From contig JAJGOT010000206.1 of assembly GCA_022457155.1 (NCBI GenBank), forward strand, positions 154,501-218,500: 64,000 nucleotides of DNA, read 5' to 3'. The notes below the pieces were generated by a model. It had not been told where the DNA came from. It worked only from the letters and a program-made list of their open reading frames with translations, and did not search any database. Positions 37,662-63,223 of the stretch are shown here, piece by piece (position 1 is the stretch's first letter; each line of letters starts with the position of its first letter). Origin of the DNA: Cladopsammia gracilis. Taxonomy: Eukaryota; Cnidaria; Anthozoa; Scleractinia; Dendrophylliidae. The position numbers were made by a program, and so were the translations under genes.

Positions 37662-37770
37662 GCTATTCGCTCCAGTCCCTTACAGAGCGAGTATAAATAA
37701 GAGCTGTGCATCTAATTTCGGCCCAGTTCAAGTAAGAGTCCTTTGGTGCTGTTACCTTCGTGTTCTCACC
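37662..37770 (+). repeat. A1 repeat of the split-direct-repeat element
   Basis: gctattcgctccagtccctt, acagagcgagtataaataag, then gctgtgcatctaatt and ggcccagttcaagtaag. The match to A2 is near perfect to about 37740 and then fades. Confidence 0.85.
37692..37699 (+). promoter_or_regulatory. TATA box in A1
   Basis: TATAAATA, also present in A2 at 40849-40856. Its position, with an open frame about 70 bp on, fits an RNA polymerase II promoter inside the terminal repeat. Confidence 0.6.
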
Positions 37771-37863
37771 ATGTCCGGCGAACAAGCTCCCGTGGCTGAG
37801 GTAGTTCCAGATAGTTCAAGCGCTTCTTCAGTCAGCTCGAGCGCCTCAACCAAGCCCAGCTAA
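37771..37863 (+). CDS. short Ser-rich frame inside the non-autonomous element
   Basis: ATG at 37771 in good context (accATGt). It encodes 30 residues: MSGEQAPVAEVVPDSSSASS then VSSSASTKPS and a stop. It is the first ATG after the TATA box by about 70 bp. It could be the relic N-terminus of a gag-like protein. A longer frame starting at 37567 begins outside the element and is unlikely to be used. Confidence 0.35.
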   Translation: MSGEQAPVAEVVPDSSSASSVSSSASTKPS

Positions 37864-38083
37864 CCAGAACCCTTACTGGTAAAATTTTCTTTAGTATTTG
37901 TCCAGCTTTTTAGCCGTTTCATCGCTTGTTCCCCCGCGGCTCCACGTGCTCGCCGGTTTTTATCTCCTCACCCTGCTCCTTGTCCCTTATCCGCTAGCCT
38001 CGTTTCTTTCTATAGTTTTTCGCTTCCCTACAGCTTTTATGGACTTTACACGCTTTCATATTTGGTTGTTGAGCTATTTATAG

Positions 38084-39310
38084 CTTTGCGTGCTTCGCTT
38101 CACAAACACCGGGTTTGTGCAGTGCTCTTCCCTCGGTCCCCCTTTTAAGTTTGTACGCTTTAATATTATGTTTGTACGTTTATTTTTTTGCGTATTTTGC
38201 CTCATAAATATCGGGTTTGTGCAGTGCTTTTCCCTCATTTCCCATTTTAGTTTGTACGCCTGTATTTGTCCAGTTTTGCTATGCGTACTTTGCCTCACAA
38301 ACATAAGGTTGGTGCAGTGCTTTTCCCTCGGGTCCCTTTTAGATTGTACGCTTGTTTGTGACGTTTTGTTATATGCGTACTTTGCCTCACAAACATCTGG
38401 TTTGTGCAGTGCTTTTGAAGTTTGTACGCCTATATTTGTGACGTTTTGTTAATATGCGTACTTTGCCTCACGAACATCGGGTTTGTGCAGTGCTTTTGAA
38501 GTTTGTATGCTTTTATTTGTGACGTTCTGTTATGCGTACTTTGCCTCGCAAACATCGGGTTTGTGTAGTGCTTTTGAAGTTTGTATGCCTTTATTATGCG
38601 TACTTTGCCTCACAAACATCGGGTTTGTGCAGTGCTTTTAAGTTTGTACGCCTTTATTTGTGACGTTCTGTTATGCGTACTTTGCCTTGAAGTTTGTACG
38701 CCTTTATTTGTCACGTTCTGTTATGCGTACTTTGCCTCGCAAACATCGGGTTTGTGCAGTGCCTTTTAAGTTTGTACGCCTTTATTTGTCACGTTGTGTT
38801 ATGCGTACTTTGCCTCACAAACATCGGGTTTGTGCTGTGCCTTTGAAGTTTGTACGCCTTTATTTGTCACGTTTTGTTATGCGTACTTTGCCTCGCAAAC
38901 ATCGGGTTTGTGCAGTGCTTTTGGAGTTTGTACGCCTTTATTTGTGACGTTTTGTTATGCGTACTTTGCCTCACAAACATCGGGTTTGTGCAGAGCTTTG
39001 AAGTTTGTACGCCTTTATTATTCGTGCTTTGCCTCACGAACTTCGGTTTGTGCACTGCTTTGAAGTTTTGTACGCCTTTATTATGCGTACGTTGCCTCAC
39101 AAACATCGGGTTTGTGCAGTGCCTTCTTTGTACGCCTTTGTTTGTCACATTTTGTTTATATGAGTACTTTGCCTCACAAATATCGGATTTGTGTAGTGCT
39201 TTCGAAGTTTATACGCATTTATCTGTCAAGTTTTTGTTATTAGTACTTTGCCTTACAGGCATCGAGTCTGTGCCATGCTTCGCTCAGTTCCGTTGAAGTT
39301 TGTACGTTGG
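38084..39310 (+). repeat. minisatellite, about 15 units of 62-100 bp (mode 78)
   Basis: Units carry gtttgtacgcctttatttgt, gacgttctgttatgcgtact, ttgcctcacaaacatcgggt and ttgtgcagtgcttttgaa. Each unit can form a hairpin (cacaaac / gtttgtg). Long Cys/Leu-rich frames on both strands come from the repeat and are not genes. Confidence 0.92.
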
Positions 39311-39599
39311 TTTTTATTACCCTGGATCTGCTTGGTTCCTGTATTTATTTTTATGTTTTAAATTTTGCAGATTCGCGATTTTTCATGTCATTGGCATCCT
39401 ATTGTTTCCTTTTCTATAAGTATTGTTGCCAGTTCTACCCGGTTTAGCACTCTTTTATTGTGCGTTCCGCCTTTATTAGTGGATTCTATGGTTCGCGTGT
39501 TTATCTTTGTGTTTAAGTCGAAGTTTGCATGCATCGGGTAGTTATCCGTATTCCTTTCCGTTTACTCATTATTTCCCTGTCATTTTCGGAGTTTGTTTT

Positions 39600-39966
39600 G
39601 TTCCGCGCCCTCTCCCGCGCCATTTATCTCGTTTCCTTTTTTTTCCCCATGGTAGCCTGAAAGGGTGTCTAATGCCCTAGGCGGATTACTGACGCTCAGG
39701 TTGCCATCCCTTGGGTGGGTTCTCTCGCAAGTTTCCCGCGCACAATCATTTACGTTTTCCTCGACATTATATCCTGTTCATCACTCAAGGGCTGGCAACC
39801 TTTATATCATATATATTTGTCATGTACAGAGTATAACCGTCCTTTTCAATTGCAGAGCTCTGCTTTGTCCTCTGCTTATGCTACTTAAAGGCACCCTTAA
39901 AAGGGAGTTTTCTAGTTTTCGGATTTCTTGGCCGGTAGACAAGTTGTTTTTTTCTGCCACGCCTAG
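39600..39966 (+). repeat. duplicated block, copy 1
   Basis: Starts gttccgcgccctctcccgcg and includes atggtagcctgaaagggtgt, ggattactgacgctcaggtt and actcaagggctggcaacctt. Copy 2 lies 461 bp downstream. Confidence 0.85.
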
Positions 39967-40060
39967 GCTCCCGGAAAAAGACGCAGGTCCACATCACTTC
40001 TATGTCCTCCTCTAAGAAGGCCTAAAATTCATATCCGTGGTTGCCCTGTTCGCCTATTCT

Positions 40061-40392
40061 GTTCCGCGCCTTCTGCCGCGCTATTTGTTTCGCTCCCCTT
40101 TTCCCATGGTAGCCTGAAAGGGTGTCTAATGCCCTAGTCGGATTACTGACGCTCAGGTTGCCATCCCTTGGGTGGGTCTCTCGCGAGTTTCCCGCGCACA
40201 ATCGTTTGCGTTTTCCCCAACATTATGCCCTGTTCACCACTCAAGGGCTGGCAGCCTTTATATCATATATATATTTGCCATGTAAGAAGAGCATCCCTTT
40301 GTCATCCGCTTATGCTAATCAAAAGACTCCCTAAAGAAGATTTTTAGTTTTTGAGTTCTTTGCCGGGATGCAAGATGTTTTCTGCCACGCTT
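40061..40392 (+). repeat. duplicated block, copy 2
   Basis: Same order of words as 39600-39966 with about 10% change and small deletions, ending in the shared ttttctgccacgc. Confidence 0.85.
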
Positions 40393-40756
40393 ATTGAGCA
40401 GATTGCGAACTCTACTTTACAGGATTACAGTCCCGCCTCAGTTACTATCTGCAAGACGCTCAAATTTACGAGGGTAAACTCTGCACAGCTTTAGAGCCGG
40501 GGTGGCCATTACTTTAGCCTTCACTCTAGACGCCATGGCTCATTTTGGTTGGTGGCATGCATGCTCCTACCGCATCCTATAACATGAATGCTGCACAAGG
40601 CCTTTGATTTACAGGACCATCGGAGTTGCTGTCTCGCCATGTCTCCTTTAGATTTGGGTGGTTGGATGGGATTTTCTGGTTTGGGGTTTGAGGTTTGAGT
40701 ATAGGCAAGTGTCTCGGGTTATTTGGTGTTAGGCCATTGTAACGTTTAACATCTGG

Positions 40757-40823
40757 GCACGGTCGCATATCTCCATCTCTTATTAAGCAAGCGTGAAAGG
40801 GACTGTCGCGAAAAGTATGCTAT
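40757..40823 (+). repeat. B1 repeat of the split-direct-repeat element
   Basis: gcacggtcgcatatctccat, ctcttattaag, aagcgtgaaaggg and gactgtcgcg, ending agtatgctat. Matches B2 with three small differences. Confidence 0.88.
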
Positions 40824-41018
40824 TCGCTCCAGTCCCTTACAGAGCGAGTATAAATAAGCTAGCTGTGCATCTAATTGCGGCCCAGTTCAAGTAAGAATCC
40901 TCTAGTTGTTGGCAGCCGTACTTGTTATCTCTCTCTTTCGCGCTTGCCTCCTATGCCTCCGTGCTTTTCTTTCCCCTCCCTCCCTTTCCCTATCCGATTT
41001 CACTTCCTACTCTCTCAA
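40819..41018 (+). repeat. A2 repeat of the split-direct-repeat element
   Basis: Starts with the same gctat that ends B1, then repeats A1 with its TATA box (40849-40856) before diverging into a C/T-rich stretch. Confidence 0.85.
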
Positions 41019-41084
41019 GCACGGTCGCATATCTCCATCTCTTATTAAGAAAGCGTGAAAGGACTGTCGCGAATAGTATGCTAT
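41019..41084 (+). repeat. B2 repeat, right end of the element
   Basis: Same as B1 less one G. Ends agtatgctat, after which the sequence leaves the repeat (cggtcaattc). Confidence 0.85.
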
Positions 41085-52039: not shown

Positions 52040-54230
52040 AAGATAGTGGGTTCATGTAATCTTGGAATTGTATGGTGTTCTATCAAGTACAGTTCTCGCG
52101 TGATTAGAGTGGGGCCTGGTGTTGTAGACAAGGGCTTCGTATTGTCGGTTCATGTAGTCGCGCGCGATAAAGCGTGGGGCCTGATATTGTATATTTACAG
52201 CAGGCTCGCCCTAGGAAGAGCACAGACAAATTTTTATTGCAATAAAAAATGTGTCACTTGTTTAAGCACTTGTCAATAGTATCAGTATCGCTCAAAGTCA
52301 TGGGCCTGATATGGAATGTACTACAAGGGCTTCGTATTGTCGGTTCGTGTACCCCGCGCGCGATAAAGCGTGGGGCTTGATATTGTATATGTACAGCAGA
52401 CTCGCCCTAGGAAGAGCACAGACAAATTTTTATTGCAATAAAAAATGTGTCACTTGTTTAAGCACTTGTCAATAGTATCAGTATCGCTCAAAGTCATGGG
52501 CCTGATATGGAATGTACTACAAGGGCTTCGTATTGTCGGTTCGTGTACCCCGCGCGCGATAAAGCGTGGGGCTTGATATTGTATATGTACAGCAGACTCG
52601 CCCTAGGAAGAGCACAGACAAATATTTATTGCAATAAAAAATGTGTCACTTGTTTAAGCACTTGTCTATAGTATCAGTATCGCTCAAAGTCATGGGCCTG
52701 ATATGGTATTTAGACAAGGGCTTCGTATTGTCGGTTCGTGTAGTCGCGCGCGATGAAGCGTGGGGCTTGATATGGTATATGTACAGCAGGCTCGCCGTAG
52801 GAAGACCACAGGAAAATTTTTATTGCAATTAAAAGGGTGTCACTTGTTTAAGCGCTTGTCAATAGTATCAATATCGCTCAAAGTATCCGAGTATTGTGGT
52901 TTTTATGGTGGATGGCAAAGTACAGCTCTCGCGTGATGGGGCCTGATATGGAAGGTAGACAAGGGCTTCGTATTGTCGGTTCATGTAGTCACGCGCGATG
53001 AAGCGTGGGGCTTGATATGGTATATGTACAGCAGGCTCGCCGTAGGAAGAGCACAGACAAATTTTTATTGCAATAAAAAATGTGTCACTTGTTTAAGCAT
53101 TTCTCTATAGTATGAGTATCGCTCAAAGTCATGGGCCTGATATGGTATTTATACAAGGGCTTCGTATTGTCGGTTCGTGTAGTCGCGCACGATGAAGCGT
53201 GGGGCTTGATATGGTATATGTACAGCAGGCTCGCCGTAGGAAGAGCACAGACAAATTTTTATTGCAATGAAAAATGTGTCACTTGTTTAAGCGTTTCTCT
53301 ATAGTATGAGTATCGCTCAAAGTCATGGGCCTGATATGTTATTTATACAAGGGCTTCGTATTGTCGGTTCGTGTAGTCGCGCACGATGAAGCGTGGGGCT
53401 TGATATGGTATATGTACAGCAGGCTCGCCGTAGGAAGAGCACAGACAAATTTTTATTGCAATTAAAAGGGTGTCACTTTTTTAAGCGCTTGTCAATAGTA
53501 TCAGTATCGCTCAAAGTATCCGAGTATTGTGGTTTTTATGGTGGATGGTGAAGTACAGCTCTCACGCGATGGGCCTGATATGGTATGTAGACAGGGGCTT
53601 CCTATTGTCGGTTCGTGTAGTCGCGCGCGATGAAGCGTGGGGCCTGATATTGTATATTTACAGCAGGCTCGCCGTAGGAAGAGCACAGACAAATTTTTAT
53701 TGCAATTAAAAGGGTGTCACTTGTTTAAGCGCTTGTCAATAGTATCAGTATTGCTGAAAGTAACAGAGTATTGTGGTTTTTATTGTGGATGGTGAAGTAC
53801 TGAGCTCTCGCGTAATAGGCCTGATATGGTATGTAGACAAGGTCATGTAGTCGCGCGCGATGAAGCGTGGGGCTTGATATTGTATATGTACAGCAGGGTT
53901 GCCCTAGGAAAAGCACAGACAATTTTTTATTGCAATAAAAATGGCGTCACTTGTTTAAACACTTGTCTATAGTATCAGTATCGCTCAAAGTATCCGAGTA
54001 TTGTGGTTTTTATGGTGGATGGCGAAGTACAGCTCTCGCGTGATGGGCCTGATATGGTATGTAGACAGGGGCTTCGTATTGTCGGTCCGTGTAGTCGCGC
54101 GCGATGAGGCGTGGGGCTTGATATCGTATATGTACAGCAGGCACGGAGTAGGAAGAGCACAGGAACATTTTCATTGCGATATAAAAGGTTTCACTTGTTA
54201 TAGCACTTGCAGGGGCACTCTTCAGCTTGT
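52040..54230 (+). repeat. satellite, about 10 units in two sizes (195 and 245 bp)
   Basis: Units share gggcttcgtattgtcggttc, gtgtagtcgcgcgcgatgaa, gcgtggggcttgatat, tatgtacagcaggctcgcc, gtaggaagagcacagacaaa and tgtcacttgtttaagc. Anchors fall near 52132, 52327, 52523, 52718, 52963, 53157, 53351, 53595, 53840 and 54069. Long units carry an extra block (tccgagtattgtggttttta, agtacagctctcgcgtga) that short units lack. Open frames in it are repeat-derived. Confidence 0.93.
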
Positions 54231-55740: not shown

Positions 55741-56451
55741 TAAAATTGTTTTATCGTGTTTTACTTAAAAAAAGCCACTAGTTGAGTAAAAGAGATGGTT
55801 GATTGTCTGAATTCCATTTTAACTAGCATCCCTTTGCATTCAAATCTATGTACTAAAAAGTCTAGTACGTTAAAATAATATCAATAATGATCCTTAGTAT
55901 TCATTTCAACTCTTGACGCAACATGATTTGTGGAAAGAGTTGCTGCGTCAAGAGTTGTACGGAATACCTAGGATTAAAAGACGTAATTATCATTAATTTT
56001 CTAATCAGTAAGAAAATCAGGAAACAAAAATCAAGCAGTTTTTTGAAATGCTGAACATTGTAGTTGTCGCCTTATCGCAGATGTGGAAATCGGCACATTA
56101 CTTTGACAGACCTGCTGGGGAACAGATTTGACTTGTCTCAACTTCTACTGTGTTTATTGCCTCGGCCATGTTCTTCGGCAGTTAGCAACCAACTACAGCA
56201 ATAAGTTTATAACTGACGCTAAAATGTCCTGTTGTCCACTACTGTTGGATTTCTGCACTCTTCTCTTGTGCAATGTCGCCTCTAGGTGTTTATCAAGAAG
56301 AGATTTTCTCACATGGTCAACTACAAGATTGTATGTGGAACAAAATATGTACCTCTTGGATATTGATTTACTTGATCTCGAGCTGAAACATTTATTGCCT
56401 TGTGACGCCTCCGTTTAATGTCCTCTGTTGATTCTCTTACAACAAATTTAT
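55741..56451. other. noncoding left of the YR retrotransposon
   Basis: It includes a hairpin at 55892-55972. A 96-codon frame at 56128-56418 has no known domain and I do not call it a gene. Confidence 0.5.
55892..55972. mobile_element. short foldback hairpin
   Basis: ccttagtattcatttcaact, cttgacgcaac pair with gttgctgcgtcaagagttg and ggaatacctagg. Confidence 0.7.
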
Positions 56452-56883
56452 GTTCAAGTTTATTATTCGATAAACTGATGTTAATGAGACCTGAGACAAT
56501 CGTAAGAGTCACTTACTGTCGGCGTGTAACATTTCTTTCCCTAGTCCACTTGTTAAGTGTATGGCCTATTGTTATGCTAATTTTAGAGGGTACTACAATT
56601 TCTGTACTTCTCTGTACCCTTGCAAGGCCAAAGTCCAAGCCTTGCTTTCTGTATTTTCTTAAGGTCTAGGTCAAGCCTGACATTGATATAGTCGCCTTAT
56701 TTACAATGTCTTTAAGTTTTAAAGCAAAGTCCAAAGTATGCCAATCTCAGTAAGATGTTATCAAACAAAGGTCCCAGTCAGTTCTGTCTTATGTTGCCCT
56801 CGTGCTCTTACCTATAATGTAATAGCGCGTGTCCCACCCTGTTCATTCTTCCATCGCTTCGCACCGAGCATCACAACAATTTT
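56452..56883 (+). repeat. A1 repeat
   Basis: Starts gttcaagtttattattcgat and ends catcacaacaatttt. Identical to A2 but for single changes (for example catcac/catcat near the end). Confidence 0.92.
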
Positions 56884-56959
56884 TTCGCTGCGAGTATACA
56901 AGTTTTTTAAAGCGTTTCCTCGAATTCCTATCAGCTACATACCTTTGTACCACGTAACT

Positions 56960-58342
56960 ATGCCTAAACAACGAAAAGCTCCGGCCCGTAGGACAACCGC
57001 GACACGCAATCGTCCAGCAGCAAACGACGGGGTCAGCGAGGAAACGAACTTCACTACAATGACCACAGAAACCCTTCGCCTCCTGCTGGGCCAGCACAGT
57101 CTCTTACAGACGGGTAACCGTCCCCAGCTGATCACTCGCCTCGAGGCCCACCAAGCCGCCACTCGGCAAAACGTTCCTGCTAGGAATGCCGGCTCTACAA
57201 ACAACCAGGCCAGTCAATTGGAACTGGCCCAGCTCATCGCCTCGATGATCGATGAACAACTCCCCGGCCAGCAAAATGGCGCTCTCTCGCAAGCAAACAA
57301 CACCATCCCCAGGCCTCTCGCGGACGACCACATTATGACAATCGAAGATGGCCGACCACCCGGTCCCAATCCTCCTCCTCCACCACCGACAATCCAAGAT
57401 GGCCGACCACATGGACCCAATCTTCCCCTGCCACCTACCATCCAAGATGGCCGACCACTCGGCCCCAACCTTCCTCCTCCACCTACGATCCAAGATGGCC
57501 GACCACCTTACGGTTTCAATCATAACTCCAATTCAGCCTCACTCCTCGCCGGTTTTCCACGACCTGGTGTCCTCTTCAACCCGGCCAACCCCGCTGACGT
57601 CGCTACACTTCATCTAGACTTCCGGCAACCGTCGATCGCAAGTCACCTGACAAAGACCACGACCACAGCCATCACGAACGGTGAGTACGTGGACTTTGCT
57701 TCTCTTCTCCCCCTCGCTTCCCTCCTAACCGATACCCTTCATTCCCAACTGAAGCTTAAGATCGGGGACCAAGGACTGACAATTCCCCTCCCTTCCCCAT
57801 CTAAACGTCCCCGGATTTCCACCATCGATAACTGGCTTGATGCCTTCGCTATTTTTTCCTCAGTACTGGTTTCTGCCTACCCCTCACGCGCCGCCGAGTT
57901 AATCGCTTATCAGCAACTCATAAGGGATGCGGCGCAGAAATTTCCTGGGATGTCCTGGTATGTGTATGACGTTGAGTTTCGGCGCCGTGCCTCTCACAAC
58001 CTTTCCCTTGGGTGGGGGGAACGCGATGTCCAACTGTATCTGGACACCTTTACGGGCCTCCCCAAATCAGGGTGTCGTGTTTGCGGCAGCTCAGACCACT
58101 TCAGTGACTCGTGCCCTCTTTCTACCCTCAGGTCCCGGGACACCCCCAAATCGGACATATGCTACAACTACAACCAAGGCCGTCCCTGCGCCCGCAACCC
58201 ATGCCCCTACCAGCACTGCTGCAATCAGCCAGGATGCTCGGGAACCCACCCAGCCCAAGACCACTCCAAACCATCCCGCAACCGAGACGACCGCCCTAGA
58301 TCAGCTTCAAGCTCAAGCAGTTCCTCCCGGAGCCATCCCTAA
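56960..58342 (+). CDS. gag-like protein with SAP and zinc-finger motifs
   Basis: The frame is open from 56738, but the likely start is the ATG at 56960 (acgtaactATGC), which opens the basic N-terminus MPKQRKAPARRTTATRNRP and lies outside A1. This gives 460 residues. Residues about 35-68 (TTETLRLLLGQHSLLQTGNR then PQLITRLEAHQ) look like a SAP-type nucleic-acid-binding helix pair. About 125-185 is a Pro-rich stretch with four copies of IQDGRP-x-GPN-x-PPPP. The C-terminal part has a Cys knuckle (CRVCGSSDHFSDSC) and a second Cys/His cluster (CYNYNQGRPCARNPCPYQHC then CNQPGC). It ends in a basic Ser-rich tail. Expected to package element RNA. It overlaps pol in another frame. Confidence 0.85.
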   Translation: MPKQRKAPARRTTATRNRPAANDGVSEETNFTTMTTETLRLLLGQHSLLQTGNRPQLITRLEAHQAATRQNVPARNAGSTNNQASQLELAQLIASMIDEQLPGQQNGALSQANNTIPRPLADDHIMTIEDGRPPGPNPPPPPPTIQDGRPHGPNLPLPPTIQDGRPLGPNLPPPPTIQDGRPPYGFNHNSNSASLLAGFPRPGVLFNPANPADVATLHLDFRQPSIASHLTKTTTTAITNGEYVDFASLLPLASLLTDTLHSQLKLKIGDQGLTIPLPSPSKRPRISTIDNWLDAFAIFSSVLVSAYPSRAAELIAYQQLIRDAAQKFPGMSWYVYDVEFRRRASHNLSLGWGERDVQLYLDTFTGLPKSGCRVCGSSDHFSDSCPLSTLRSRDTPKSDICYNYNQGRPCARNPCPYQHCCNQPGCSGTHPAQDHSKPSRNRDDRPRSASSSSSSSRSHP

Positions 58343-58613
58343 ATACCTTTCCCATCTCTCCCCTCCCACCCCAATCAACATCCCCGAGCTCCTATCCTAT
58401 CTCCAAGACCATCCAGACCAGTCCACTGTCCATCACCTTATCACTGGCTTCTCAGAGGGCTTCAAAATCGGCTATGGGGGCCCCAGGGTTCCACAAGAAC
58501 ACCCCAATTTGCCCTCCGCAAAGGACCACCCTGCTATAATCGACCAGAACATGTTGAAAGAAGTCACACTAGGCCACACTGCAGGCCCCTTCCTGGTTCC
58601 CCCCCTTCCCTAA
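57927..58613 (+). CDS. pol N-terminal part, before the frameshift
   Basis: Only the part after about 58300 is likely pol; before that the frame overlaps gag. It encodes PPGAIPKYLSHLSPPTPINI, PELLSYLQDHPDQSTVHHLI, TGFSEGFKIGYGGPRVPQEH and MLKEVTLGHTAGPFLVPP, the usual lead-in to the reverse transcriptase of YR retrotransposons. A run of seven C (58599-58605) then puts translation into a stop at 58611-58613. The true frame continues one base later, so one extra C seems to have been gained, either in the genome or in sequencing. Confidence 0.8.
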   Translation: MRRRNFLGCPGMCMTLSFGAVPLTTFPLGGGNAMSNCIWTPLRASPNQGVVFAAAQTTSVTRALFLPSGPGTPPNRTYATTTTKAVPAPATHAPTSTAAISQDAREPTQPKTTPNHPATETTALDQLQAQAVPPGAIPKYLSHLSPPTPINIPELLSYLQDHPDQSTVHHLITGFSEGFKIGYGGPRVPQEHPNLPSAKDHPAIIDQNMLKEVTLGHTAGPFLVPPLP

Positions 58614-59955
58614 TTTTCAAGTTTACCCTATTGGAGCTATCCCCAAAAAGCATTCCCCTGAATGGCGGACAATTTTCCACCTTTCATATCCCAAACACCA
58701 CCCCACTAGCGTGAACGCCCACATATCCCCTGAAGACTACTCCCTCCAATATATCAGACTTGATAATGCCATCACCATTCTACGGGAATGTGGCCCCGGC
58801 TGTTATATGTCTAAATTGGACATCAAAGCTGCCTTCCGCAATATCCCTGTACACCCCTCAGATTGGGAACTCCTTGGTATGAAATGGCAAGGGCTATATT
58901 TCTTCGACATGGTTCTCCCATTCGGCCTTCGTAGTGCCCCCTACCTTTTCGATCAGTTCTCCTCTGCCCTAGAATGGATCATAAAGAACAAACTGCGCAT
59001 CCCCAAGGTTATTCACATTCTGGATGATTTTTTCATAGCTGCTCCCCCACCTCGCTCTATATGCTCCACAGCCCTTTGCAAGATCCTACACCTGTTTACG
59101 GAGCTGAACATCCCAATAGCCCCTGGCAAGACCTACCCTCCTTCCACCTCACTCGAATTCATGGGCATCCTCTTAGACTCAAACACCATGGAAGCACGCC
59201 TCCCTCCCGACAAACTCACCCGGACTCGACAAGCCCTCCATCAGTGGTCCCTGAAAAAATCAGCTACCCTCCGGGAACTCCAATCCCTTATAGGCACCCT
59301 CCAGTTCGCTTGTAGGGTTATCGCTCCCGGCCGCCCCTTCCTCCAGCGTATCATCCACCTAACTAAGGGTATCCGGCACCCCCACTGGCACATTAAACTT
59401 AATAATGGGTTTCGTAAGGACATTCAGATGTGGAGCGTGTTCCTTGAACACTGGAATGGGGTATCCATATTTCTCGATTCCCACATTTCGTCCCCACCAG
59501 AACTCGAACTCTTCACCGACGCATCTGGGTCCTTAGGCTTTGGGGGCTTCCTAGATGGCCGGTGGTTCCAGGGCCACTGGCTACCTGAACATACCCTCAG
59601 TGCCAAGCGGGGTATCAGCATCGAATGGCAGGAGCTGTTCCCCATTTACCTAGCCTGTACTCTGTGGGGTTCTGAATGGTCTGGGAAACGCATCCGCATG
59701 TGGTGCGACAATCAGTCCGTCGTAGCCATCATCAACTATAAACATTCCAAGTCCCCAAAGGTGATGGACCTTGTCCGGGCCATCACCCTCCAAACCCTGA
59801 CCTACAATTTCACCTTTCAGGCAACCCACATTCCCGGGCTGGATAACTCCATTGCTGATTCCCTTTCCCGTTTCCAGATGGCCCGCTTCAGAGCCCTGGC
59901 TCCCATGGCCTCTCCCATTCCTTGCACCATCCCTCCATCTGCAATGAACATCTGA
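58612..59955 (+). CDS. reverse transcriptase-RNase H (pol main part)
   Basis: This frame carries the enzyme core after the frameshift: NFQVYPIGAIPKKHSPEWRT and FHLSYPKHHPT, then YMSKLDIKAAFRNIPVHPSD (first catalytic Asp), LPFGLRSAPYLFDQFSSALE and the catalytic pair in VIHILDDFFIA. After the thumb, RNase H follows: ELELFTDASGSLGFGGFLDG (Asp), ISIEWQELFPIYLAC (Glu), MWCDNQSVVAIINY (Asp) and HIPGLDNSIADSLSR (Asp). All expected acidic residues are present. A GTG at 58711 is in frame but is not a natural start; the protein would be read from the upstream frame. It overlaps the recombinase frame by about 34 bp. Confidence 0.92.
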   Translation, partial: NFQVYPIGAIPKKHSPEWRTIFHLSYPKHHPTSVNAHISPEDYSLQYIRLDNAITILRECGPGCYMSKLDIKAAFRNIPVHPSDWELLGMKWQGLYFFDMVLPFGLRSAPYLFDQFSSALEWIIKNKLRIPKVIHILDDFFIAAPPPRSICSTALCKILHLFTELNIPIAPGKTYPPSTSLEFMGILLDSNTMEARLPPDKLTRTRQALHQWSLKKSATLRELQSLIGTLQFACRVIAPGRPFLQRIIHLTKGIRHPHWHIKLNNGFRKDIQMWSVFLEHWNGVSIFLDSHISSPPELELFTDASGSLGFGGFLDGRWFQGHWLPEHTLSAKRGISIEWQELFPIYLACTLWGSEWSGKRIRMWCDNQSVVAIINYKHSKSPKVMDLVRAITLQTLTYNFTFQATHIPGLDNSIADSLSRFQMARFRALAPMASPIPCTIPPSAMNI

Positions 59956-60923
59956 CTGCCAAAGTTCAACAGTACCTGAAAGCCTCCCTTGCACCCTCCA
60001 CAAGACGGACTTATCTGGCCGGCCAAAAACAATTCCTCTCCTTTAACCTTTTGCATGGTACAGTCTCCCCGTCCAACCCGCTTTTCCCAGCTTCTGAATT
60101 GACCCTAATGTATTTCGCATCCCATCTAGCCCACACAGTGTCATACTCAACGGTAAAACTATACCTTGTGGCAGTTCAGGACCACCACGAGCTCAATTTT
60201 CCCCTCCAGATTCACCAAATGCATAGGTTGCAAAAAGTCCTAAAGGGCATTAAGCGCCTAGCCCCTACTAGACGGATGGACCATTTCCCCATCACCATGC
60301 AAGTTCTCTACACCATGCATGCCAACCTCCAGCCCGAATTTAGTAACAATCTAGACCATATCATGCTTTGGGCAGCCTTTACCCTAGCCTTTTTTGGGTT
60401 TTTACGTTCCAGCGAGTTTACTTGTAATGGCCCCTTCGATCCCGAGGTCCACATGACCACCCAAGACATCACCCTCGTCCCAGACTCCCTCTCTCCCACT
60501 CACATGCTTGTTCGCATTAAACAATCCAAAACTGACCCCTTTCGCCACGGCCACACCCTCACCATTGCAAAGTCCACTTCTCATATCTGTTCCGTGATGG
60601 CTATGAAAGACTACCTCCTTCAAGTCCAGCCACCTCCAAGTCAACCACTGTTTTCCTTTTCTCAACCCGGCAAATGGCTTACCCGCAACAACCTGACCCA
60701 AGAGCTGCGAGCCATCCTACAGCAGTGTGGCCTCCCTTCAACCAACTTCTATTCTCACAGCTTCCGCATAGGAGCTGCCACCACTGCCGCTCAAGCAGGC
60801 GTTCCCCCATGGTTGATAAAAGTTCTTAGACGATGGAACTCAGACTGTTACGAACGCTATATCAGGACTCCCCAGTCCTCTATTCTAGCCATTCCAAAAC
60901 TTTTGGCAGACACTTGCTTATAA
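59922..60923 (+). CDS. tyrosine recombinase of the YR retrotransposon
   Basis: About 333 residues with no stop. The N-terminal part has LKASLAPSTRRTYLAGQKQF, like the core-binding domain of phage-type integrases. The catalytic part shows Arg in FLRSSEFTC, Lys in RIKQSKTDPFR, the H-x-x-R box in YSHSFRIGAATTAAQ, Trp in LRRWNSDCYERYI and the nucleophile Tyr in that same motif. All five key residues are recognisable, so it may be active. There is no ATG at the frame start; it overlaps the end of pol in the -1 frame, so expression by frameshift or re-initiation is likely. It would insert the circular DNA copy by site-specific-type strand exchange. Confidence 0.93.
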   Translation: MHHPSICNEHLTAKVQQYLKASLAPSTRRTYLAGQKQFLSFNLLHGTVSPSNPLFPASELTLMYFASHLAHTVSYSTVKLYLVAVQDHHELNFPLQIHQMHRLQKVLKGIKRLAPTRRMDHFPITMQVLYTMHANLQPEFSNNLDHIMLWAAFTLAFFGFLRSSEFTCNGPFDPEVHMTTQDITLVPDSLSPTHMLVRIKQSKTDPFRHGHTLTIAKSTSHICSVMAMKDYLLQVQPPPSQPLFSFSQPGKWLTRNNLTQELRAILQQCGLPSTNFYSHSFRIGAATTAAQAGVPPWLIKVLRRWNSDCYERYIRTPQSSILAIPKLLADTCL

Positions 60924-60970
60924 AGCAATAGTACAATAGTTACAAATTATTGCTATAATAGTTTTCTCTG

Positions 60971-61133
60971 CAGGGTTGTTAAGAAGATTTTTAGTAGACG
61001 GAGAATCTAACAAAGTAGACGGCACTGGAGACGCTTTTCTCTACTTTTTAGCTTTTGGCCTCGAATTGTAGCCAGCTAAACTATCTAAGTAGCCGGCTAT
61101 ATCGCCGGCCGCCGGCACTTTTTGACAACCCTG
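60971..61133. mobile_element. 163-bp MITE inside the retrotransposon 3' region
   Basis: The ends cagggttgttaa and tttgacaaccctg are inverted and flanked by ctctg on both sides (60966-60970, 61134-61138). Internal gccggc-rich palindrome near 61093-61115. The cagggttg terminus recalls hAT elements, but those make 8-bp duplications, so the class is open. Confidence 0.75.
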
Positions 61134-61218
61134 CTCTGCTATTTTGCATTGCCTACTGCTCAGTATTATTTTACTGTGGGGGAATTGTGTCCTTAACTAT
61201 CGTAGTCCCACAATTCGT

Positions 61219-61610
61219 GGCAGGGAAGTGCAACCCTTGGCTGCACTTTACCCCACAGTAAGGCTTAGCCCTTGGAGACAGGTCCGGAGAAATATCCATT
61301 CCAGGGTGGGTACCCACGGTCCCACCTGATCTGTACTCCCCCCAGGAGGGCACCCCTCTCCTGGTTCCCTAGTTCCCCGTGACTAGGGATATGGGCCTCA
61401 CCCCACTGGAGACAGATCCGGACCACGTCCAGGGTGGCTACCCCCGGTACCACCTGATCTGCTCTCCCCCCAGGAGGGCACTCCTCTCCTGGTCCCCGGG
61501 GGGTTCCCTAGTGTCACTTCCCTGCCACCCTGATTTTACCCATCACCTATGCGTTGTTGTCCTAAATTATCGTACACATCAACCAGCCAGCCTCGAAAGA
61601 GGATCATTAA
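61219..61610 (+). repeat. B1 repeat
   Basis: Starts ggcagggaagtgcaaccctt and ends gaggatcattaa. It contains an internal direct duplication of about 100 bp (ggagacaggtccgga ... ctctcctgg twice). B1 and B2 have the same length of 392 bp. Confidence 0.92.
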
Positions 61611-62042
61611 GTTCAAGTTTATTATTCGATAAACTGATGTTAATGAGACCTGAGACAATCGTAAGAGTCACTTACTGTCGGCGTGTAACATTTCTTTCCC
61701 TAGTCCACTTGTTAAGTGTATGGCCTATTGTTATGCTAATTTTAGAGGGTACTACAATTTCTGTACTTCTCTGTACCCTTGCAAGGCCAAAGTCCAAGCC
61801 TTGCTTTCTGTATTTTCTTAAGGTCTAGGTCAAGCCTGACATTGATATAGTCGCCTTATTTACAATGTCTTTAAGTTTTAAAGCAAAGTCCAAAGTATGC
61901 CAATCTCAGTAAGATGTTATCAAACAAAGGTCCCAGTCAGTTCTGTCTTATGTTGCCCTCGTGCTCTTACCTATAATGTAATAGCGCGTGTCCCACCCTG
62001 TTCATTCTTCCATCGCTTCGCACCGAGCATCATAACAATTTT
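61611..62042 (+). repeat. A2 repeat
   Basis: Follows B1 directly, as expected for split direct repeats. After it a 92-bp unique spacer (62043-62134) leads to B2. Confidence 0.92.
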
Positions 62043-62134
62043 CCCCCCCCACCCTCCCATGACTGAAACCTTTGTGATTTAAAGTTTATCAACTGGAATG
62101 TTTTTTCGTAGTATTGTTTATTAATAAATATGGC

Positions 62135-62526
62135 GGCAGGGAAGTGCAACCCTTGGCTGCACTTTACCCCACAGTAAGGCTTAGCCCTTGGAGACAGGTC
62201 CGGAGAAATATCCATTCCAGGGTGGGTACCCACGGTCCCACCTGATCTGTACTCCGCCCAGGAGGGCACCCCTCTCCTGGTTCCCTAGTTCCCCGTGACT
62301 AGGGATATGGGCCTCACCCCACTGGAGACAGATCCGGACCACGTCCAGGGTGGCTACCCCCGGTACCACCTGATCTGCTCTCCCCCCAGGAGGGCACTCC
62401 TCTCCTGGTCCCCGGGGGGTTCCCTAGTGTCACTTCCCTGCCACCCTGATTTTACCCATCACCTATGCGTTGTTGTCCTAAATTATCGTACACATCAACC
62501 AGCCTGCCTTGAAAGAGGATCATTAA
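62135..62526 (+). repeat. B2 repeat, right end of the retrotransposon
   Basis: Near-identical to B1 with a few changes (ccgcccagg, agcctgccttgaaa). After cattaa the sequence leaves the element. Confidence 0.92.
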
Positions 62527-63223
62527 CCATGTTTTTAACCATAATCGAACTCGCAAAACGTTACGGAAAATCTCAATCTGAAAAGAATTGAACATAAAAA
62601 CAGAGTTTTTTCTATTCCAAATTGTGATTCGCCACTTAGGAAACCTTGTCTCTACATTTTCCACGTATAACGAGGCACGTTCTATTGAAATTTAGACAAC
62701 AGGGGGCGGTTTCTTGAAAGACCCGGTAATTACCAGGCCCGTAAAGCTGTTTTATTTTCATTGAAGATCGAGGTTTCAAAGATTTTGCAGATAACATGAT
62801 AAAACTATCAGTTAGCAAAACAAAATGGACTGGTTTGTTCTCTAGGGCCATCGCTTTTACTCTTTAGATTTTGATTTCAATAGTTGGCTTTGGGCCCGAA
62901 AAGTTATCAGGACTTTCGAGAAACGGGCCCCAGGCCCGGGCTATGGTTTTCAACATAGAACCCCTTGTCATTCCTGTTGTCAGTCGTTGATTGCTCAATA
63001 TTCGACGATTTGGGAAGGAAATTTAATGTCAACTTCGGATAAATTGGTTAAGAATCTTTGAGAAATAGCGAAAAATAGATAATTGTTTTACGATTTTCTA
63101 CAAATTTCTCCAAATTATGCGTGACTTGTCGGATTATGTGGAGGAAGCCAAATTATGCGGGTCTGCATCCACGCATAATTCCATAAGCCCTGATTATTGC
63201 ACTAAAAATCGTCGTTGTGAATG
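62527..63223. other. noncoding right of the retrotransposon
   Basis: No exon or RNA gene seen. 63085-63205 is an inverted relative of the repeat at 55624-55740 (ccaaattatgcgg, ccataagccctg). Confidence 0.5.

Follow-up and report, generated by a model that had tools for sequence, protein, structure and literature searches.

A probable non-autonomous, split-direct-repeat tyrosine-recombinase retrotransposon family in the coral Cladopsammia gracilis

Positions 37662 to 41084 of the window (the whole 64,000-nucleotide stretch of contig JAJGOT010000206.1 that was analysed) contain one copy of a dispersed family. The element is very probably a non-autonomous split-direct-repeat (PAT-like) tyrosine-recombinase (YR) retrotransposon, descended by internal loss from an element of the ALOG-YR/DIRS1 class, whose coding part has been replaced by a hairpin minisatellite and a duplicated block. 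This reading is drawn from sequence comparisons, as is the further suggestion that the family is probably moved in trans by the YR of rarer relatives with the same joint. An earlier note on this DNA had proposed that the element could be a non-autonomous, circle-forming YR retrotransposon; that view is supported with two corrections, namely that a relic of the YR is kept and that the partner is likely to belong to the ALOG-YR/DIRS1, PAT-like class.

Anatomy of the window copy

The element has the order A1 ... B1-A2-B2, which the earlier note had described and which both the repeat alignments and the genome-wide joint matches given below bear out; apart from the joint, all features are read on the plus strand. 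A1 (37662 to 37741) forms the 5' end and contains a TATA box, TATAAATA, at 37692 to 37699, from which we infer that A1 serves as a promoter. A2 (40819 to 40900) carries the same box at 40849 to 40856, and it aligns with A1 over 40 nt at 100% and a further 46 nt at 91% identity. Repeat comparison also defines B1 (40757 to 40823), which has GCTAT at its end, and B2 (41019 to 41084), which together with the ends of other copies marks the 3' end; the two align over 44 nt at 98% and 27 nt at 93%. The B1/A2 joint (40794 to 40841) was located by repeat comparison and folding, and consists of inverted arms around a 6-bp spacer, GTATGC (40815 to 40820). As the note had observed, GCTAT lies at the 5' end, the joint and the 3' end of the window copy; its first two bases at the 5' end are not fixed across copies (see below).

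The interior contains what the note had listed, a 30-residue frame, about 15 hairpin-bearing units and a duplicated block, besides a TATA box in each A repeat. The 30-codon frame (37771 to 37863), identified by ORF comparison across copies, may represent the beginning of a first ORF now lost. A frame of 30 or 31 codons is found near the 5' end in 29 of 32 unique copies, the exceptions being two with an early stop (L014 and L032) and one in which no start was found (L010). The T-rich minisatellite (38079 to 39280; repeat family D4, 15 copies) has units spaced 63 to 127 nt apart, each with a CACAAAC/GTTTGTG-type hairpin. Repeat comparison gives 15 units and a looser pattern 16; across 26 copies the loose pattern, which also catches false units, counts 11 to 34. 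Two array units, when folded, did no better than shuffled sequences (z -0.84 and -0.44). Variants within the array stems often keep plus-strand G-U pairs, which is suggestive only, since the pattern caught false units and transition bias explains part of the effect.

The duplicated block comprises copy 1 (39596 to 39911; repeat families D13, D8, D7 and D10) and copy 2 (40057 to 40345; repeat comparison). A strong hairpin, AGGTTGCCATCCCTTGGGTG / CACTCAAGGGCTGGCAACCT, lies at 39690 to 39810 (z -4.1). An Rfam scan of the element returned one chance match, GlmZ_SraJ, whose 18.3 bits fall well below the gathering score of 60, and ARAGORN detected no tRNA in the element.

Dispersed copies, the joint and an empty site

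The 878-Mb assembly was searched with the 5' end of the window copy (37662 to 37990), and the best 40 of 321 candidate matches, window copy included, were scored. The other 39 are 95 to 98% identical to the window copy, and in all 40 the match starts at query base 1, 2 or 3. The 5' end common to these 40 copies is exactly NNTATTCGCTCC in 33 and differs by one base in 7. The 3' end is present in 32 of the 40, exactly as GTATGCTAT in 25 of these 32, and was absent from the stretch fetched for each of the other eight. Nine loci (L027 to L030, L033, L034, L036, L038 and L039), several of them on contigs C1338 and C63, have one common 5' flank; this is a local, recent segmental duplication carrying the element. 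With eight of the nine left out, the counts rest on 32 unique 5' ends. Full copies that are unique number 26 (window copy included) and are 3.0 to 5.3 kb long, and 23 of the 26 have A1 at the 5' end and B1-A2-B2 at the 3' end. The earlier note had looked for many copies with the same ends, and these were found; neither of the outcomes it had set against its reading, a single locus or copies with no fixed ends, occurred.

The arms of the joint, GGACTGtCGCGAATA / TATTCGCtCCAGTCC, are 82% complementary and fold far better than shuffled sequences (z -4.9). A 28-nt joint pattern, from which the window copy departs by one substitution, has 130 matches in the genome at three or fewer mismatches (63 plus 67), while the reversed control has 0; two loci with a YR are counted among the 130, as are some duplicated copies, and positions were listed for about 100 of them. 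Twenty further joints were compared over the 1.3 to 2 kb upstream. Fourteen have the same body, three are short derivatives and three have no match, the last being two 5'-truncated copies and one divergent relative (C268). In the short derivatives (L049, L051 and L052), which have one flank in common, A1 precedes the joint by about 1.4 kb. A candidate concatemer on contig C953 was rejected, as it consists of three copies with one common 3' flank. On the basis of its anatomy, in which inverted arms flank a 6-bp spacer as in a YR site, the joint is proposed to be the YR crossover site.

An empty site has been found for one insertion, L013, which sits within a dispersed repeat. At eight other loci the same repeat, at about 75% identity, lacks the element. 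Seven of these represent one duplicated locus and the other is L024, giving two independent empty copies. The empty copies read ...AGCAAGT-G(T/C)TAT-TCACC..., with the core present once, while the filled locus reads ...AGCAAGT/GTTATTCGCC ... GTATGCTAT/TCACC, with the 5-bp core at both ends. Thus, the target supplies the core once. In addition, the flanks of all 26 unique full copies contain no target duplication of 3 to 6 bp, in line with the earlier note's expectation of empty sites without one.

The two ends differ in what they retain. At the left, the first two bases of GCTAT vary across the 32 unique 5' ends (G in 14, C in 26) and seem to have been contributed by the target. At the right end of the 26 unique full copies, GC is constant (26/26) and the following TAT varies (T 25/26, A 22/26, T 24/26); the next two positions are T in 12 and C in 15 of the 26. 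GTAT does not precede the variable left pair in any of 40 left flanks, indicating that only one of the two products expected from a full 6-bp exchange is seen at the left end. Apart from this left/right asymmetry, the ends look as expected after a conservative YR crossover with partial homology.

The number of A2-B2 modules per copy is 0, 1 or 2. In three of the 26 unique full copies (L015, L023 and L024), B1 is not followed by an A2-B2 module and the element ends at a single B, and one copy on contig C585 (L074) has two modules in register. Such changes fit recombination at the joint, and unequal exchange would give the same result. They also supply the argument for another origin, in which the A and B repeats arose by local tandem duplication within an ordinary dispersed repeat that has no recombinase-based mobility. 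This origin is so improbable as to be nearly negligible, given the same ends at many unrelated places, the precise empty site, the palindromic joint, and the YR frames beside that joint. A bolder reading of the modules, which we consider speculative and rather unlikely, is that the joint is live in chromosomes: the partner recombinase would add and remove 264-bp A2-B2 modules in resident copies, always leaving the strand-asymmetric core described above, with the target's bases at the left and the element's at the right. The hairpin array would then be a selected plus-strand RNA feature, for example a signal for packaging or copying through which an enzyme-less family outnumbers its partner.

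The recombinase relic and the probable partner

The earlier note had stated that the element has no reverse transcriptase (RT), RNase H or recombinase. Its own genes are indeed lost, but a decayed, frame-shifted relic of a YR C-terminus remains at 40419 to 40643, just 5' of B1 with a gap of about 110 nt. The relic was identified by tblastn with P0121, the translation of a 168-codon open stretch that lies just 5' of B1 in the C268 copy (L068:646-1149). P0121 matches Pfam Phage_integrase (E 2.2e-6), and keeps an HxxR and a Y that vary little or not at all among 10 aligned homologs and which we take to be the catalytic residues. Stops are found further upstream of the YR stretch, and the C268 copy seems to be 5'-truncated. 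Residues 62 to 139 of P0121 are 47% identical to the window relic (E 6e-12; tblastn, 60 sequences). The relic is present in 34 of the 40 scored copies, the other six being among the eight copies without a 3' end. In many copies its pieces lie in two frames, suggesting that the YR was probably lost before the family spread.

When the genome was searched with P0121, the best 150 of 1115 candidate matches were scored. The C268 locus itself is followed by C756, C1038 and C1112 at 93 to 97% identity, and the next match is at 59%. At both C268 and C756 the joint starts 151 nt past the YR match, so the earlier note's suggestion of an autonomous relative with RT and recombinase between the same repeats finds a counterpart, for the recombinase, in YR frames beside the same joint. 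No joint among the roughly 100 of 130 listed lies beside the YR frames of C1038, which has a 446-aa open frame at the match, or C1112, and by eye none of the other 148 YR matches has a listed joint less than 1 kb away. With 130 joint matches, against at least 4 loci with a matching YR among the best 150 of 1115, the family seems far commoner than its partner. About 33 other YR matches with equal scores (155 bits), 49% identical to P0121 and mostly in a 460-aa open frame, look like another, young-looking related YR family.

P0121 has 151 relatives in the protein database, among them one named from Porites evermanni (P0138). Of seven homologs scanned, three (P0222, P0226 and P0233) contain an ALOG domain (PF04852; E 1.9e-9 to 7.8e-17); the other four gave a Phage_integrase match and no ALOG, and several look N-terminally short. 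The ALOG domain is given as a mark of a DIRS1-class group that has been reported in Nematostella and in Acropora (PMC3537659), and since some homologs carry it, the partner is probably of this ALOG/DIRS1 (PAT-like) class. The metazoan ALOG copies were inferred to be inactive in that 2012 account (PMC3537659). The frame of P0125, a homolog of different origin, seems to run on past the YR into a B-like repeat, as judged from one short tail, and blastp of the B frames gave P0125 only E 4.2.

The window itself holds a second split-repeat element, at 56448 to 62523, with a SAP-domain ORF1, RT and YR frames. Because it has the same A1 ... B1-A2-B2 layout and brings RT and YR frames into the same window, this Ngaro-type element could be thought to mobilise the family. 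That role is highly improbable. Blastn of the family element against 56001 to 62600 gives matches of only 13 to 15 nt (best E 0.047), which agrees with the earlier note's view that the two have no sequence kinship; P0121, the partner-type YR, finds the relic and not the YR of this second element at E 1e-3, and at other loci a matching YR adjoins the same joint.

Repeat pairing, the proposed cycle and known elements

In the copying model outlined for PAT and Ngaro elements, A1 equals A2 and B1 equals B2 at insertion (PMC6681497). Among 23 copies, which were chosen by likeness to the 5' end of the window copy (a choice that lowers between-copy A1 differences), the A1-A2 distance is 1.87 within copies and 2.18 between them (permutation P 5e-5). 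Pairing of B1 and B2 within copies is weak and not significant (P 0.09). Private variants occur in both A repeats in 4 cells (L011, L013, L022 and L037; 0.4 expected), L011 and L013 having the same one variant in both, and in both B repeats in 1 (L045; 0.3 expected). Variants in one repeat only outnumber paired ones, 43 to 4 in A and 25 to 1 in B. All of the paired A variants lie upstream of the expected start site.

A Crypton-like DNA transposon derivative, moving as a YR cut-and-paste circle without an RNA step, would likewise have a joint of the YR type and integrate at a short homologous core, and Cryptons are noted to have non-autonomous families (PMC3212892). The same source describes Cryptons without terminal inverted repeats or long direct repeats (PMC3212892), whereas the present family has long split direct repeats. 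Its A1 ... B1-A2-B2 order with paired A1/A2 variants fits template-based end repair, and the ALOG domain known from DIRS1-class retroposons is present in three homologs of the relic's YR. Thus, a Crypton origin is improbable.

For the favored split-repeat retrotransposon, we infer an RNA intermediate, a circle, action in trans and current activity. Transcription would start in A1 below the TATA box and end in B2, and an RT supplied in trans would copy the element RNA. The internal B1-A2 joint would then act as the template that restores the missing outer ends, yielding a DNA circle with one B/A joint. The partner YR would bind both inverted arms and recombine the joint with a chromosomal site resembling GC-TAT-TC, after which the left core would keep the first two bases of the target and the right core the GC of the element.

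Large, gene-poor elements with intact ends that are moved in trans are also found among the LARD-type non-autonomous LTR elements, which differ from the present family in how their ends are built and in the enzyme that integrates them. PAT-like and Ngaro-like split-direct-repeat elements, as described in PMC6681497, PMC9210276 and PMC4157794, have the same A1 ... B1-A2-B2 order; these carry gag, RT/RNase H and YR genes, whereas the present family has a YR relic and a minisatellite only. The ALOG-domain DIRS1-class retroposons (Iyer and Aravind 2012, PMC3537659) have a homologous YR, as three P0121 relatives with PF04852 attest, and their Ectocarpus element is given direct terminal repeats. They are presented there as coding elements or remnants; in contrast, the present family is without genes, and in it the split repeats, crossover core and empty site are defined. 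SIRE, the non-autonomous form of VIPER in trypanosomes, is likewise a non-autonomous derivative of a split-repeat YR retrotransposon (PMC6681497). However, SIRE is said there to correspond to the A2-B2 region, whereas 23 of the 26 unique full copies here keep A1, body, B1, A2 and B2.

SIRE was the only non-autonomous split-repeat case found in the literature search, which did not cover Repbase or most subscription papers. The parts of the element are of known kinds, and a gene-less family of this class was not met in the same literature. YR retrotransposons are usually recognised by their enzymes. In a fungal survey, elements were retained if they had one or more of four protein domains (PMC3783388), and gene-less relatives thus escape notice. 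Split repeats combined with a palindromic joint offer a way to find them, and the family supplies both a crossover site and an empty target for a class that is probably ALOG-YR.

Other repeats are present in the window. In the element at 56448 to 62523, the two A copies match each other at 100% over at least 300 nt, as do the two B copies, which makes a recent insertion probable; among 120 relatives listed for its YR, the named ones come from the corals Orbicella, Oculina, Montipora and Porites and the soft coral Dendronephthya. A 948-aa frame with endonuclease and reverse transcriptase domains, on the minus strand at 13986 to 16832, represents a non-LTR retrotransposon. Finally, large tandem arrays occupy 1033 to 2996 and 52128 to 54199, with units of 88 bp and about 194 to 244 bp, respectively.
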